From NCBI RefSeq assembly GCF_011320225.1, contig NZ_JAAOEN010000003.1:372001-436000 (forward strand): DNA of 64,000 nt, in the 5' to 3' direction. A program made the translations under genes and the position numbers. Source of the DNA: Phytoactinopolyspora limicola. Lineage in GTDB: Bacteria; Actinomycetota; Actinomycetes; Jiangellales; Jiangellaceae. Positions 36,723-42,055 of this stretch are shown in pieces (the stretch's first letter is position 1; every line of letters begins with the position of its first letter). The notes below the pieces were generated by a model. It searched no databases and was not told where the DNA came from. It saw nothing but the letters and a program-made list of their open reading frames with translations.

Positions 36723-38069
36723 ATGAACGAGCAGGTGGTGGATGGTTCCACGGACGTGGACGGTCGGGACACGGTGGTGGGTGAGCTGGCCTCGATGCTG
36801 TCCCGGCTGGCCGAACTACCCGCCATCGTCGTTGATGACGCGGCCCGCATCGACATGCTCGCCGGGTTGGAGCGGTTGAAAGCCGCCGCCGCGGCAGTGC
36901 AGTACGAGGTGATGGTGCAATTCGCCGAGTCCCAGCGGGCGGCCCGCCGTGGGATGGGATTTGCTGAGCGCCACGCCACCCGTGGGGTGCCCGAACAGAT
37001 CGGGCTGGCCACGAAGACCTCACCCTCGGCCGCGGCCCGTCAACTCGGCCGGGCCCGGGCGTTGGCCTGTCACCTCCCGGGCACCTTCGCCCTGCTACGC
37101 AAGGGTGAGATCTCCGAGTTCGCCGCCACGTTCATCGTGAATGAGACCTCGCACCTCGCCCCGGAGCAGCGCCGCCAGGTCGACGCCCGCCTGGCCGGTG
37201 ACATCACCGGGATCGGGCCGCGCAGGGTTCAAGGCCTGGCCCGGCGCTACGCCATCGAGGCCGACCCGGCTGCTGCGGTGGCCCGGGCCGCCCGGGCACG
37301 TAAGGACCGGCGGGTCGGGGTGCGCCCGGCACCGGACACCATGACCGTGGTGTCGGCGTTGCTGCCGTGCGAACAGGGCGTGGCCGCGTATGCGGCGTTG
37401 CGTCGTCATGCTGACGGGGTGATCGCCGCCGGTGGTGATGGGCGTACCCGGGATCAGGTCATGGCCGACACCCTCGTCGAACGCCTCACCGGACAGGCCA
37501 GCGCCGACGCGGTCTCGGCTGAGATCGGGCTGGTCATGACCGACACCTCACTGCTCGGCGGCAACGGCGGCGCCGGTGGCAGTGGTGATGGTGAGGCTGC
37601 GGAGTTGCTCGGGTACGGGCCCATCCCCGCTGAAACCGCGCGGGACATCACCCGCTGCGCCGGGGACCGCCAGGGTGAGGACGAGCGGCGGGCACGGGTC
37701 TTTCTGCGGCGGTTGTTCACCGACCCGGTCACCGGGGTCGTGGTCGATTGTGACCCGAAACGGCGCCGGTTCGATGGCACCCTGGCCCGGTTGTTGACCT
37801 ACCGCGACGGCGGCACCTGCCGCGACCCCTACTGCGACGCACCCATCCGGCATTTCGATCACATCCACCCCTACACCCACGGTGGAGTAACCAAGCCGGG
37901 TAATGGCCGAGGCACCTGCGCCCGCGGCAATTACGTGAAACAAATGCCGGGCTGGAGCATCCGGCTGGTCGATCCGTTCCGGCACATCGTGGAAACCACC
38001 ACCCCCACCGGACACCGATACACCTCACAACCCCCACCGGCACCCGGCGGACGACAACGCGCCGCCTGA
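36723..38069 (+). CDS. DUF222 / HNH endonuclease domain protein (13E12-repeat type), copy 1
   Basis: The 448-residue protein has an N-terminal DUF222 domain (about 30-290: ELASMLSRLAELPA, QYEVMVQFAESQRAARRGMG, GRARALACHLPGTFALLRKG) and a C-terminal HNH nuclease motif (YRDGGTCRDPYCDAPIRHFDHIHPYTHGG, then NGRGTCARGN, about 370-425) with the Cys/His residues that bind metal. This is the domain pair of the mycobacterial 13E12 repeat family, repetitive genes scattered through actinobacterial genomes. A nearly identical inverted copy lies at 58724-60061. The biological role is not established; spread as a selfish or intein-like element has been suggested for repetitive HNH genes. Confidence 0.92.
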   Translation: MNEQVVDGSTDVDGRDTVVGELASMLSRLAELPAIVVDDAARIDMLAGLERLKAAAAAVQYEVMVQFAESQRAARRGMGFAERHATRGVPEQIGLATKTSPSAAARQLGRARALACHLPGTFALLRKGEISEFAATFIVNETSHLAPEQRRQVDARLAGDITGIGPRRVQGLARRYAIEADPAAAVARAARARKDRRVGVRPAPDTMTVVSALLPCEQGVAAYAALRRHADGVIAAGGDGRTRDQVMADTLVERLTGQASADAVSAEIGLVMTDTSLLGGNGGAGGSGDGEAAELLGYGPIPAETARDITRCAGDRQGEDERRARVFLRRLFTDPVTGVVVDCDPKRRRFDGTLARLLTYRDGGTCRDPYCDAPIRHFDHIHPYTHGGVTKPGNGRGTCARGNYVKQMPGWSIRLVDPFRHIVETTTPTGHRYTSQPPPAPGGRQRAA

Positions 38070-38108: not shown

Positions 38109-38135
38109 CAATCCGGGTCCGGAACAGGTCCGAAC
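38109..38135 (+). promoter_or_regulatory. Putative SigK promoter before the molybdopterin oxidoreductase
   Basis: CAATCC (38109-38114, preceded by C), a 15-base spacer and CCGAAC (38130-38135) match the elements found upstream of sigK itself at 40593-40619. They resemble the CCATCC/CCGAAT elements reported for mycobacterial SigK promoters. The start codon follows 7 bases later, over GAGGGG, so the leader would be very short. Confidence 0.6.
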
Positions 38136-38142
38136 GAGGGGC

Positions 38143-39678
38143 ATGACGCACCAACGACGCTTCCGGTGGCCAGGGGTGATGGCTGCCCTGGCTGGTGTCG
38201 TCGCCGGCGGGGTCACCCTTGGTGTGGGTGAGCTGGCCAGTCTCCTGGTGGGGCCGATGACCTCACCGTTCTTCGCGGTCGGAAACACGATTGTCGATCT
38301 GACCCCGGAATGGCTCAAGAGTTTTGCCATCTCGACGTTCGGTGAGAACGACAAGAACGTCCTGCTGCTGACACTTGGTGCGGTGCTGACGCTTTTCGCG
38401 GCGGTGGCGGGCTGGTTGCAGCTGCGCAGGCCGCCGCTAGGCCTGATGTTGGTGGCACTGCTCGGTGTAGCCGCCATTGCTGCCGCGGTCAACCGGCCGG
38501 GCAGCGATGCTGCGTATGCCATTCCGTCCATCATTGGCGTCACGGCGGGAATCACCACGCTCTGGCTTCTGGTGCGACAGCCGTCGGAGCCGACGAACAT
38601 AGTCTCCGGCGCGGACCGGCGCCGGTTCCTCATGTTGACCGCTGGTGCGGCCGGGCTCGCCGTGTTCGCCTTCCTCGGTAGCCGCCGGTTGGGCCAGACC
38701 CGGCAGGACGTCCTGGAAGCCAGAGACCGGTTGCGGATGCCGCGGGCCGCGGACCCGGCGCCGAGCCTGCCGGCGGACGTCGAACTCGACGTCGACGGAG
38801 TCACCCCGTTCACCACGCCGAACTCGGACTTCTACCGGGTCGATACCGCCCTTGAGGTTCCCGTCGTCCATCCCGACGACTGGCAACTCCGGATCCACGG
38901 GATGGTCGACCGGACCGTTGTCCTCACCTTCGATCAGCTCGTCTCGCTGCCGCTCGTCGAACGGATGATCACCCTGACCTGCGTGTCCAACGAGATCGGC
39001 GGCAACTTGGCCGGGAGCGCGGTCTGGCGTGGATATCCGCTCGAAGAGCTGCTTCTCGAGGCCGGCCCCGACGCCAACGCCGACATGGTGCTCTCTACCA
39101 GTGTCGACGGCTACACGGCCAGCACGCCCCTGGACGTGTTGACCGACGGTCGAGACGCCTTGCTGGCCGTTGCTATGAACGGCGAACCGTTGCCGCTACG
39201 GCACGGTTTTCCAGTCCGCATGGTCGTCCCCGGCCTGTATGGCTATGTTTCGGCGACGAAATGGGTCGTCGACCTCGAAGTGACCAGGTTCGACCAGGCC
39301 ACCGCGTATTGGACGGATCGTGGCTGGGCGGATCGGGCACCGATCAAGACCGCATCCCGCATCGACGTTCCGGGTTCGTTCGCCCGCCTCGATGCTGGCA
39401 CGAATGTCGTCGCCGGGGTGGCGTGGGCGCAGCACCGTGGCATCAGCCGGGTGGAGGTCAATGTCGACGACGGTCCGTGGCAGGACGCTGAGCTGACGGC
39501 CGAGGCATCCGCCGACACGTGGCGGCAGTGGTTCTGGGACTGGGACGCCACCCCCGGCCGGCACACCCTCCGAGTCCGGGCCACCGATGGCGACGGCGAG
39601 CTTCAGACCAGCGACAAAGCACCACCGATTCCCGATGGCGCCAGTGGCTGGCATTCCGTCGTGGTGGAGGTGGTCTGA
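38143..39678 (+). CDS. Membrane-anchored molybdopterin-dependent oxidoreductase (sulfite oxidase/YedY superfamily)
   Basis: The 511-residue protein has four or five N-terminal membrane helices (residues 10-145), a short twin-Arg-like segment ADRRRFLMLTAGAAGLAVFAF starting the catalytic part, the molybdopterin domain (about 225-390) with the Mo-ligand cysteine in ITLTCVSNEIGG (Cys280), and a C-terminal immunoglobulin-like dimerisation domain (about 405-511, HRGISRVEVNVDDGPWQDAE). The electron acceptor is unknown; repair of oxidised methionine or sulfite oxidation are known for relatives. The neighbouring fasciclin, sigK and rskA genes place it in a SigK envelope-stress regulon, and a matching promoter precedes it. 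Confidence 0.92.
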   Translation: MTHQRRFRWPGVMAALAGVVAGGVTLGVGELASLLVGPMTSPFFAVGNTIVDLTPEWLKSFAISTFGENDKNVLLLTLGAVLTLFAAVAGWLQLRRPPLGLMLVALLGVAAIAAAVNRPGSDAAYAIPSIIGVTAGITTLWLLVRQPSEPTNIVSGADRRRFLMLTAGAAGLAVFAFLGSRRLGQTRQDVLEARDRLRMPRAADPAPSLPADVELDVDGVTPFTTPNSDFYRVDTALEVPVVHPDDWQLRIHGMVDRTVVLTFDQLVSLPLVERMITLTCVSNEIGGNLAGSAVWRGYPLEELLLEAGPDANADMVLSTSVDGYTASTPLDVLTDGRDALLAVAMNGEPLPLRHGFPVRMVVPGLYGYVSATKWVVDLEVTRFDQATAYWTDRGWADRAPIKTASRIDVPGSFARLDAGTNVVAGVAWAQHRGISRVEVNVDDGPWQDAELTAEASADTWRQWFWDWDATPGRHTLRVRATDGDGELQTSDKAPPIPDGASGWHSVVVEVV

Positions 39679-39747
39679 AGAGCAGATCTAACCCTCCACT
39701 CCACGAATCCCGGACAGCACAAGGAACTCACTCGAAAGGAACAGATC

Positions 39748-40461
39748 ATGAGACTGACCACCCGACGCACGTCCGCAGTTCTGGCGGCGGTGGCCGCTTT
39801 GTCGCTCACCATGGCCGCCTGTGGTAGCGACGACGCCAACGACACCACCTCCGACGATTCGGTCAGCGCCCCCGAGGAGGACGCTCCCGATGAGGACATG
39901 GACGACGGCGTCACTGACGATGAGCCCGACGAAGACACAGCTGACGACGCTCCTGACGACGCCATGGCCGGTCCGGTCGGACCGGGCTGCGCCGACTACG
40001 CCGCCATGGTGCCCGACGGTGACGGCTCGGTCGAGGGAATGGCCCAAGACCCGGTCGCTACGGCCGCGTCGAACAACCCGCTGCTGACCACACTGGTGGC
40101 GGCCGTGTCCGGTGAGCTCAACCCTGACGTGGACCTCGTCGACACCCTCAACGGCGGCGAGTTCACCGTTTTCGCACCGGTCGACGATGCTTTCGCCGAG
40201 GTCGACGAGGAAACCCTGGGTGCGCTCGCAGAAGACGCCGATCTGCTGACGACGGTGCTCACCTACCACGTCGTGCCCGGCCAGGTGGGTCCTGAGGACA
40301 TCGCCGGTGAGCACGAAACCGTTCAGGGCGACACCGTCACCGTCGAAGGAAGCCCGGACATGTTGGCGGTGAACGACGCCAACGTGATCTGCGGCGGTGT
40401 CGAGACCGCCAACGCCACGGTCTACCTCATCGACGGTGTGCTCTTGCCGCCGATGGACTGA
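39748..40461 (+). CDS. Fasciclin-domain lipoprotein (MPT83/MPT70-like)
   Basis: The 237-residue protein has a signal peptide and lipobox ([10 protein letters not shown]), an acidic linker rich in Asp, Glu and Thr (residues 27-75), and one fasciclin domain (about 95-235: [61 protein letters not shown]). Fasciclin lipoproteins are surface adhesion-type proteins; in mycobacteria MPT83/MPT70 are the main SigK targets. GAAAGGA lies about 8 bases upstream of ATG 39748. The gene follows the oxidoreductase by 69 bases with no separate SigK box seen, and a strong terminator follows, so the two are probably cotranscribed. Confidence 0.93.
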
Positions 40462-40480
40462 CGGCGCGGATCTGAGAAGT

Positions 40481-40519
40481 AGCGCGGTCCCTTGCCTCGG
40501 GGGAGCAAGGGACCGCGCT
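40481..40519. terminator. Perfect 15-base-pair hairpin after the fasciclin gene
   Basis: AGCGCGGTCCCTTGC (40481-40495) and GCAAGGGACCGCGCT (40505-40519) pair perfectly with a 9-base loop. It separates the fasciclin gene from the sigK promoter. No long U tract follows, which is normal for high-GC actinobacteria. Confidence 0.8.
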
Positions 40520-40592
40520 TCGCCTGCTTTCGCTTAACTCGAGGGCCGCCGACGGTCAGTATGGTGGCGTGGACGTTCTTCTTGGTCGGCAC

Positions 40593-40619
40593 CAATCCGC
40601 CGTCGACGCGGTGCCGAAT
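40593..40619 (+). promoter_or_regulatory. Putative SigK autoregulatory promoter
   Basis: CAATCC (40593-40598, preceded by C), 15 bases, then CCGAAT (40614-40619). Spacing and both hexamers match the box in front of the molybdopterin oxidoreductase, differing only in the last base. Transcription from here would start about 35 bases before the 10-codon leader peptide. Confidence 0.65.
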
Positions 40620-40659: not shown

Positions 40660-40692
40660 ATGACGACGGCCTGTTACAGCTGGTGTTCCTGA
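40660..40692 (+). CDS. Ten-residue leader peptide coupled to sigK
   Basis: ATG at 40660 has a strong ribosome-binding site (GGAGGAACC directly upstream) and encodes MTTACYSWCS before a TGA that overlaps the sigK ATG as TGATG. The sigK ATG itself has no good ribosome-binding site, so its translation probably depends on ribosomes finishing the leader. Two cysteines in ten residues might make translation sensitive to cysteine or oxidative state, but that is speculation. Confidence 0.55.
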   Translation: MTTACYSWCS

Positions 40693-41288
40693 TGCCGGAC
40701 CTACACGCGGTTCCGCCTCCGGAGCCAACCGAGCCCGACGGGGTCGACGTCCTCGGTCGGTTGCTGAGTCGGTCGGCACGCGGTGATGTTCAGGCGTACG
40801 AGCAGCTCTACGACGAGGTTGCCGGCGCCGTGCTGGGCGTGGCCCTTCGGGTGCTACGCAACCGCGCCCATGCCGAAGAGGTCGCTCAAGATGTGATGGT
40901 CGAGATCTGGCGGATGGCGTCGCGTTACACCCCGGAGCGGGGTAGCGCCATGGCGTGGATCATGACGATCGCGCACCGCCGCGCCGTCGATCGGGTCCGC
41001 CGTGAGCAGGCGGCCACCGACCGAGAAGAGCGGGCGGCCGCGCGGGACGAACCTCGCCCGTTCGACGAGGTGTCCGAGCAAGTCGAATCCCGTTTTGAGC
41101 AGCAACAGACCCGCCGTTGCCTCGACGCACTAACCGACCTGCAGCGGGAATCCGTGACCCTCGCCTATTACGACGGATACACCTACCGGGAGGTCGCCCA
41201 GCTCTTGAATGCACCCCTGGGAACGGTCAAGACTCGGCTACGAGACGGATTGATCCGGTTGCGCGACTGCATGGGGCTGGGGAGATGA
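40692..41288 (+). CDS. sigK: ECF RNA polymerase sigma factor SigK
   Basis: The 198-residue sigma factor has region 2 (about 30-100: LLSRSARGDVQAYEQLYDEV, VLRNRAHAEEVAQDVMVEIW, AWIMTIAHRRAVDRVRRE) and region 4 (about 140-192: LTDLQRESVTLAYYDGYTYREVAQLLNAPLGTVKTRLRDG). The order sigK-rskA and the neighbouring fasciclin lipoprotein match the mycobacterial SigK locus. ATG at 40692 overlaps the stop of a 10-codon leader; a GTG three codons earlier lacks support. SigK should drive both putative promoters of this cluster and be held inactive by the anti-sigma factor encoded next. Confidence 0.93.
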   Translation: MPDLHAVPPPEPTEPDGVDVLGRLLSRSARGDVQAYEQLYDEVAGAVLGVALRVLRNRAHAEEVAQDVMVEIWRMASRYTPERGSAMAWIMTIAHRRAVDRVRREQAATDREERAAARDEPRPFDEVSEQVESRFEQQQTRRCLDALTDLQRESVTLAYYDGYTYREVAQLLNAPLGTVKTRLRDGLIRLRDCMGLGR

Positions 41289-41290
41289 CG

Positions 41291-42055
41291 ATGGCGACGA
41301 ATGCCGAGATCCACACCCTGGCCGCGCCGTATGCGCTGCACGCGTTGTCCGGTGAGGATGCCGAACTGTTCGAGCGACACCTCGCTGACTGCGGAGCGTG
41401 TCGAGTCGAGGTGGATGAGATCAGAGAAACGGCCGCACGGCTCGGCACCGCAACCAGCGTATCTCCGCCCGCGGATATGAAGGCCAATGTGTTACACCGG
41501 ATCCGGCAGGTCCGCCCGCTTCCGCCCGAGGCGGCAACCGACGACGGCGATCGCAAAGTGCTCGAGGTCGGGGCTCGCCGGCCGGCATGGCGACGCTGGT
41601 GGGCTCCGGTGGCCACCGGACTGGCCGCGGCTATGGCCGCTGGGGTCATCGCCCTGGGTATGCAACTCAACGAGACGCGTCAAGACCTCGAACAAGCTCA
41701 GCAGATCGGCGCGCAGATGCGGGAACTGGTCACCGCACCGGACATGGAACTCATCCGGGCCGAGGCCGACGGTTCTTCCGGCATGGTGATCATGGCCCGT
41801 TCGCAGGGAATCGCGGTGGTCCAGATGAGCGGCATGGACCCGGCACCCACTGAGCACACCTACCAGCTGTGGTTCATCGGCGACGACGGAGCCCGGTCCG
41901 CGGGTGTGCTCGGCGACACCCACAACGGTGAGATCGGGCCATTCACCGCACACGGACTCGACGACGCGGATCATCTGGGTGTCACCATCGAGCCGGCGGG
42001 CGGATCCGATCAGCCAACGACGGACCCGGTGATGCTCATAGAACTGCCGGCATGA
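41291..42055 (+). CDS. rskA: Anti-sigma-K factor RskA
   Basis: The 254-residue protein has a cytoplasmic zinc-binding anti-sigma domain at the N-terminus (about 1-80, with HLADCGACRVEVDEIRETAA giving the HxxxCxxC motif), a single membrane helix (about 100-120, WWAPVATGLAAAMAAGVIALG) and an extracytoplasmic RskA domain (VVQMSGMDPAPTEHTYQLWF, DADHLGVTIEPAGGS). It should bind SigK until regulated proteolysis removes it. ATG at 41291 has GGGGAG 6 bases upstream; an ATG at 41285 that overlaps the sigK stop is the alternative. Confidence 0.93.
   Translation: MATNAEIHTLAAPYALHALSGEDAELFERHLADCGACRVEVDEIRETAARLGTATSVSPPADMKANVLHRIRQVRPLPPEAATDDGDRKVLEVGARRPAWRRWWAPVATGLAAAMAAGVIALGMQLNETRQDLEQAQQIGAQMRELVTAPDMELIRAEADGSSGMVIMARSQGIAVVQMSGMDPAPTEHTYQLWFIGDDGARSAGVLGDTHNGEIGPFTAHGLDDADHLGVTIEPAGGSDQPTTDPVMLIELPA

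Follow-up and report, generated by a model that had tools for sequence, protein, structure and literature searches.

The 64-kb window, by which we mean the whole stretch of DNA analysed, contains a forward-strand cluster in the order P1, oxidoreductase, fasciclin, P2, leader ORF, sigK and rskA, followed by an opposite-strand gene with epimerase-family matches. P1 (38108..38135) is a SigK-type promoter, CCAATCC-N15-CCGAAC, assigned from its sequence and its conservation in family and non-family homologues. It is intergenic, since the frame of the upstream DUF222 gene stops at 38069, and 7 bases separate its -10 word from the ATG of the oxidoreductase gene, so that its transcript is predicted to be leaderless, starting at or beside 38143. 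That gene (38143..39678) encodes a membrane-anchored molybdopterin oxidoreductase of 511 aa with a sulfite-oxidase fold (PF00174, E 2.7e-45), and the next (39748..40461) encodes an MPT70/MPT83-type fasciclin lipoprotein of 237 aa (PF02469; MPT70 structure 1nyo). P2, CCAATCC-N15-CCGAAT (40592..40619), is the SigK-type promoter of sigK-rskA, assigned from sequence and family conservation. It precedes sigK (40692..41288, 198 aa; NF007228, 4nqw), whose start was picked by comparing relatives, and rskA (41294..42055), encoding an anti-sigma factor of 253 aa (PF10099, E 1.4e-30; PF22618). The earlier note on this DNA had described two boxes with equal 15-base spacers, as we find them, although the start that it gave, 38109, was one base late. 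The genes behind the boxes are those that it had claimed, a molybdopterin oxidoreductase and a fasciclin lipoprotein after P1 and sigK after P2. Its small regulon of two boxes stands but was incomplete, as rskA is also a member.

Ahead of sigK lies a possible leader ORF of 10 codons (40660..40692, forward strand), which is preceded by GGAGGA and whose TGA overlaps the sigK ATG (TGATG); its peptide in the window is MTTACYSWCS. At all non-Jiangella loci read (the window, L022, L023 and L025) the ORF has 10 codons and begins 32 bases ahead of sigK, with differing peptides. An overlapping mini-ORF was present at 14 of the 15 sigK genes scanned (15 of 17 loci were scanned). This arrangement suggests translational coupling of sigK.

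The sigma factor passes the curated SigK model NF007228 (265.9 bits; cut-off 226) and matches 4nqw with an E value of 1.3e-43. In the 4nqw alignment it keeps the redox cysteine pair, 50 residues apart, that corresponds to M. tuberculosis Cys133 and Cys183. Such a pair occurs in 94% of ECF18, 56% of ECF19 and <2% of other ECF families, and in M. tuberculosis the Cys-Cys disulfide stabilises the SigK-RskA complex, while a reducing agent releases SigK (excerpt of PMC7509140). The anti-sigma factor adjoining sigK is of the RskA type, with PF10099 and PF22618 both above cut-off. Residues 77-235 of the fasciclin align with residues 4-162 of MPT70 structure 1nyo without a gap over 159 residues (E 6.2e-58), and by eye a putative lipobox cysteine of the MPT83 type follows a hydrophobic stretch near its N-terminus. 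It is the single fasciclin match in this genome, where no other was found. SigK, RskA and the MPT70-type fasciclin all pass family tests, and the proposed conservation of the mycobacterial SigK-fasciclin link in a distant actinobacterium is supported. MPT70 and MPT83 are studied, with SigK, as antigens in tuberculosis; to our knowledge, the function of these fasciclins is obscure.

Frequency of the boxes in the window and the genome

The mycobacterial SigK consensus is CCATCC/CCGAAT. When one mismatch at most was allowed, P1 and P2 were the sole matches to the box in the window, with an expectation of 0.36. Taken alone, the window is weak evidence, because 4 of 100 shuffles of it also reached two or more matches. 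With C or T as its last base, the exact pattern was found three times in the 6.59-Mb genome and the reversed-pattern control not at all; the third match is antisense within a 576-aa open frame. When the base ahead of CGAA was left free and the spacer could be 14-17 long, 15 places matched (control, 2), and a crude codon-position GC filter placed 11 of the other 13 inside long ORFs and 2 outside. The strict pattern overlooks real sites, and some matches fall inside ORFs. The leaderless form of the box occurs once in this genome. For this genome, a large regulon finds no support in these counts, with the strict box present only three times (two of them in the window) and the leaderless form once. 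More targets beyond the strict pattern, such as a looser CCATCC set, are possible.

The exact pattern had 24 matches across 22 genomes from the order; the reversed control, which may be too lenient because the reversed box contains TAA, had none. A genome scan had been proposed as a check for motifs at random positions; the scan and the fixed site before oxidoreductases, described below, show that this is not so.

Conservation of the boxes in the Jiangellaceae

In 14 genomes of the family, the Jiangellaceae, every one of the 15 SigK-linked oxidoreductase copies has the box, always with a spacer of 15 bases and with the -10 word exactly 7 bases from the start codon; the count includes two copies in G006, one of them open for only 53 codons from that ATG. 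The spacer sequences vary among these copies, and one copy has CCCATCC. With spacer length and gap constant in every copy, the mRNA should be leaderless. The SigK-unlinked oxidoreductase paralogue showed the box in none of 14 upstream regions read; these derive from 15 hand-picked copies, one of which extended past the end of its contig and was dropped; the B copies of other genomes, including that of the window, lie outside this set. Oxidoreductase copies at least 67% identical to that of the window are present in all 14 SigK-positive genomes, and this SigK-linked type is found in 0 of 6 SigK-negative genomes of ≥90% completeness, a comparison that leaves out two less complete SigK-negative genomes. 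The six carry only the other oxidoreductase type (53-56% identity in five; E 2.8e-127 in G020). Because the genomes are related, the agreement of the 14 represents fewer independent events.

G017, a genus-mate with no SigK match, has a perfect box, with the 7-base gap, ahead of an oxidoreductase-like frame of 26 codons (L045, L142; G017:C12:593827-593864). By its sequence, this is a box retained ahead of an apparently decayed oxidoreductase copy. The exact pattern occurs three times in G017, once before the decayed copy, and the two further matches count against strict specificity of the box.

Of the 17 sigK genes in the family, 13 also have an N15 box no more than ~145 bases ahead of them. 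At three of the exceptions (L022, L023 and L029), the oxidoreductase and fasciclin genes end ≤170 bases from sigK, which suggests that transcription reads through from P1 into sigK; L035, the fourth boxless gene, is an additional copy carried by G006. Both boxes are kept in the window and in P. halotolerans (L025). Given the box at most sigK genes and the proximity of the exceptions to P1-led genes, P2 is probably autoregulatory and partly redundant with P1.

Further Jiangellaceae boxes precede secreted proteins, of which the one tested was positive for a CHRD domain. In G006, a Jiangella genome with four SigK-like genes, boxes (L049, L061) stand before CHRD-type proteins and also before a small protein starting MSEQSRRRFLVAAGA, with a Tat-like signal. 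At L136, L138 and L141, from three Jiangella genomes, a flavin amine oxidase gene (PF01593 confirmed in L138 and L141) is driven from a leaderless box, divergently from sigK. The two genes are ~87 bases apart and so have one short intergenic region in common. Rv0449c of M. tuberculosis is a flavin amine oxidase of this kind. A search of the present genome, run without a positive control, found no amine oxidase relative.

Leaderless boxes beyond the family

The signature CCAATCC-N15/16-CGAAY-N6/8-RTG was found at 98 places in 75 of 393 Actinomycetia genomes, with 1 match to the reversed control, which may be lenient here as well. At least 22 of the 98 places lie directly before an oxidoreductase (among 150 oxidoreductase genes listed), and at least 38 of 97 distinct places lie ≤20 kb from sigK (among 150 SigK genes listed). 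Outside the family, at least 16 of 72 places are ≤20 kb from a listed SigK gene, where ~0.7% would be expected. Twelve places, 7 of them outside the family, stand 2.4-2.8 kb from sigK, about the length of the oxidoreductase and fasciclin genes together. One scan of genome contigs yielded 10 loci, and two Actinomadura genomes (L080, L082) have the order box, oxidoreductase, fasciclin, sigK, rskA.

Among 60 upstream regions of non-family oxidoreductases, taken in score order from those not fetched before, 19 contained CCA(A)TCC-N14/17-CGAA (shuffles: mean 0.12, maximum 2), and in 18 of these 19 the start codon follows the -10 hexamer by exactly 7 bases. The remaining 41 had no box, which indicates that the oxidoreductase family is wider than the SigK link and is not everywhere under SigK. 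Genomes of 56 of the 60 loci, including all 19 boxed ones, have a SigK match at E 1e-35, so boxed and unboxed loci are hardly separable by this measure.

We read 50 of the 98 leaderless places, a non-random sample of which 30 were returned by the tool and 20 hand-picked. Genes of the SigK kind follow at 27, namely 12 oxidoreductases, 6 flavin amine oxidases (2 checked by PF01593, 4 assigned by N-terminal likeness), 5 sigK genes, 2 fasciclins, and one each of dipZ and a decayed oxidoreductase; the remaining 23 have no assigned gene of this kind or look chance-like. The dipZ case, in another family, serves as a positive control. Its product matches the M. tuberculosis DipZ structure (E 1.5e-146), and the gene is flanked by two MPT70/83-type genes. 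In M. tuberculosis, mpt83, dipZ and mpt70 each have their own SigK-dependent promoter (excerpt of PMC9861118). The likeness of the boxes to mycobacterial SigK elements that had been noted is thus supported by the same signature before a known SigK target. In two genomes of another family (L116, L117), the leaderless box precedes an ORF of six codons (MERDKT, MERDET); sigK comes after it in L116, and L117 has a sigK match a short distance downstream, in the same orientation.

A molybdoenzyme with a sulfite-oxidase fold

The structure model of the oxidoreductase (mean pLDDT 84.3) matches sulfite oxidases with Z ~29 over ~295 residues, including the C-terminal Ig-like domain. Its match to 1xdy/1xdq, the bacterial oxidoreductase that we take to be YedY/MsrP, ends at residue 433 with Z ~18. 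The Mo-ligand cysteine, Cys280, does not vary among 27 homologues, nor does Arg159-Arg160; this twin arginine precedes a hydrophobic stretch, which would fit cofactor loading in the cytoplasm and probable export by Tat. The membrane part lacks an invariant His, and an MsrQ-like haem site is therefore not indicated. SorT and SorAB enzymes are soluble, without a fused membrane domain. Residues 42-74, after the first membrane helix (VGN..VD.TPEWLK.FAI.TFG.NDK), are among the best-conserved parts outside the catalytic domain.

The equivalog cut-offs for SoxC (115.4/420 bits), SorA (102.6/600), SorT (82.8/570) and MsrP (56.6/207) were all missed. Arg232 is one position off SorA Arg55 in an ungapped alignment and Tyr389 aligns with SorA Tyr236; the sequence alignments pair no His with SorA His57. 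The description as a sulfite-oxidase-type enzyme holds for the fold, but none of the named subfamily models tested fits. A fusion of MsrP and MsrQ was set aside, given the fold match that reaches the C-terminal domain and the membrane part without invariant His.

Two readings of the regulon concern the effector only. The molybdoenzyme may reduce oxidised envelope molecules such as methionine sulfoxide, MsrP-like, within an oxidative repair response, a reading we regard as possible while leaning against it. ECF16 factors control MsrP-type enzymes against hypochlorite (excerpt of PMC8315932), the redox cysteine pair is kept in SigK, and in another family dipZ, encoding a thiol-disulfide protein, has this type of promoter. 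Against this stand the low MsrP score, the YedY/MsrP structures matching only to residue 433 and less well than sulfite oxidases, and the lack of an invariant His for an MsrQ-like haem. Rather doubtful, in our estimate, is a regulon responding to sulfite or other sulfur compounds with the molybdoenzyme as a sulfite dehydrogenase. Such a role would agree with the extended match to sulfite oxidases, C-terminal domain included, and with the sulfite-responsive ECF factors that drive sulfite-oxidising enzymes in alpha-proteobacteria (excerpt of PMC6527743). It is at odds with SoxC, SorA and SorT scores far under their cut-offs, with the missing counterpart of SorA His57, and with the co-regulated genes of relatives (fasciclin, dipZ, CHRD, amine oxidase), which are not sulfur genes.

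Discussion

We consider it very probable, from the sequence comparisons, that SigK reads both boxes as promoters of a single small regulon that reinforces itself. In the mechanism we propose, membrane RskA would keep SigK inactive until an envelope signal, possibly redox-related because both SigK redox cysteines are kept, releases it. SigK-RNA polymerase would then act at P2 to give more sigK-rskA, and at P1 to give a leaderless mRNA for the molybdoenzyme and the MPT83-type lipoprotein. The enzyme would be membrane-anchored, of the sulfite-oxidase type and probably Tat-exported, with the lipoprotein at the surface. P1 transcripts may also run on into sigK, as relatives without P2 imply. We infer SigK binding, the start sites, the signal, the export route and the enzyme substrate, and the "envelope stress" named in the earlier note is likewise a presumed inducing signal.

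It could be argued that a different ECF sigma factor uses the boxes as genuine promoters and that SigK is a mere neighbour, since this genome holds many sigma factors (92 sigma-like candidate places at first look). We find this improbable: the boxes track SigK genes across families, are kept or lost together with SigK, and precede dipZ, a known SigK target (excerpt of PMC9861118). That P1 and P2 are two meaningless short motif matches in GC-rich DNA, as the occasional shuffle of the window might suggest, is very improbable and can be rejected, because spacing and position are invariant in related genomes and the paralogue has no box.

As a SigK regulon, the locus resembles the M. tuberculosis SigK-RskA regulon in its cysteine-paired SigK, the adjacent RskA, an MPT70/83-type fasciclin target, the same promoter type (by the dipZ control) and autoregulation. 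Unlike M. tuberculosis (mpt83, dipZ, mpt70), there is no dipZ at this locus, and the fasciclin gene is the second gene behind a molybdoenzyme on leaderless P1. Moreover, sigK here is preceded at short distance by a box of its own, while autoregulation in M. tuberculosis runs via Rv0449cp (excerpt of PMC7509140). The SigK-RskA-mpt83 system of Yersinia enterocolitica (ECF19) likewise has a SigK site ahead of an mpt83 homologue, but in a Gram-negative host and with no molybdoenzyme mentioned in that excerpt (PMC7509140). In the alpha-proteobacterial RpoE4-SorT and SigE-SorAB systems, the cognate ECF factor adjoins and controls a sulfite-oxidase-family enzyme, although the ECF and anti-sigma families differ and the excerpt mentions no fasciclin (PMC6527743). 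ECF16-controlled MsrPQ (BcrS-bcrXQP, Brucella) is similar in that its ECF factor switches on an exported molybdoenzyme belonging to this superfamily (excerpt of PMC8315932); MsrPQ has a separate membrane partner, MsrQ, whereas here the membrane part is fused and lacks an invariant His.

Several elements are thus already on record: the SigK-RskA pair with fasciclin targets, SigK sites conserved in Actinobacteria and present ahead of Yersinia mpt83 (excerpt of PMC7509140), and ECF control of sulfite-oxidase-superfamily enzymes in alpha-proteobacteria (excerpts of PMC6527743 and PMC8315932). A link between SigK and a molybdoenzyme was not found in the literature searched, outside which lies Veyrier 2008 on SigK regulon evolution, a paper that may mention the enzyme; provisionally, we regard this link as new. 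As a tentative proposal that may well be wrong, the original Actinomycetia SigK response could have been a membrane-anchored molybdoenzyme with an MPT83-type partner lipoprotein on a leaderless promoter. The mycobacterial mpt83-dipZ-mpt70 arrangement would then be derived, a thiol-disulfide protein having replaced the molybdoenzyme. If true, MPT70/83 would be accessory to an extracytoplasmic redox enzyme.

The fixed 7-base gap from the -10 word to the start codon provides a sharp signature by which genomes can be searched for one class of SigK targets, and the boxes tie a membrane-anchored molybdoenzyme to a regulon known chiefly from the tuberculosis bacterium, in which the SigK-inducing signal is still obscure (excerpt of PMC9861118). 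Harmless soil actinobacteria, with their conserved molybdoenzyme behind this type of promoter, supply an enzymatic partner as well as safer hosts for work on the SigK signal and on what the fasciclins do.
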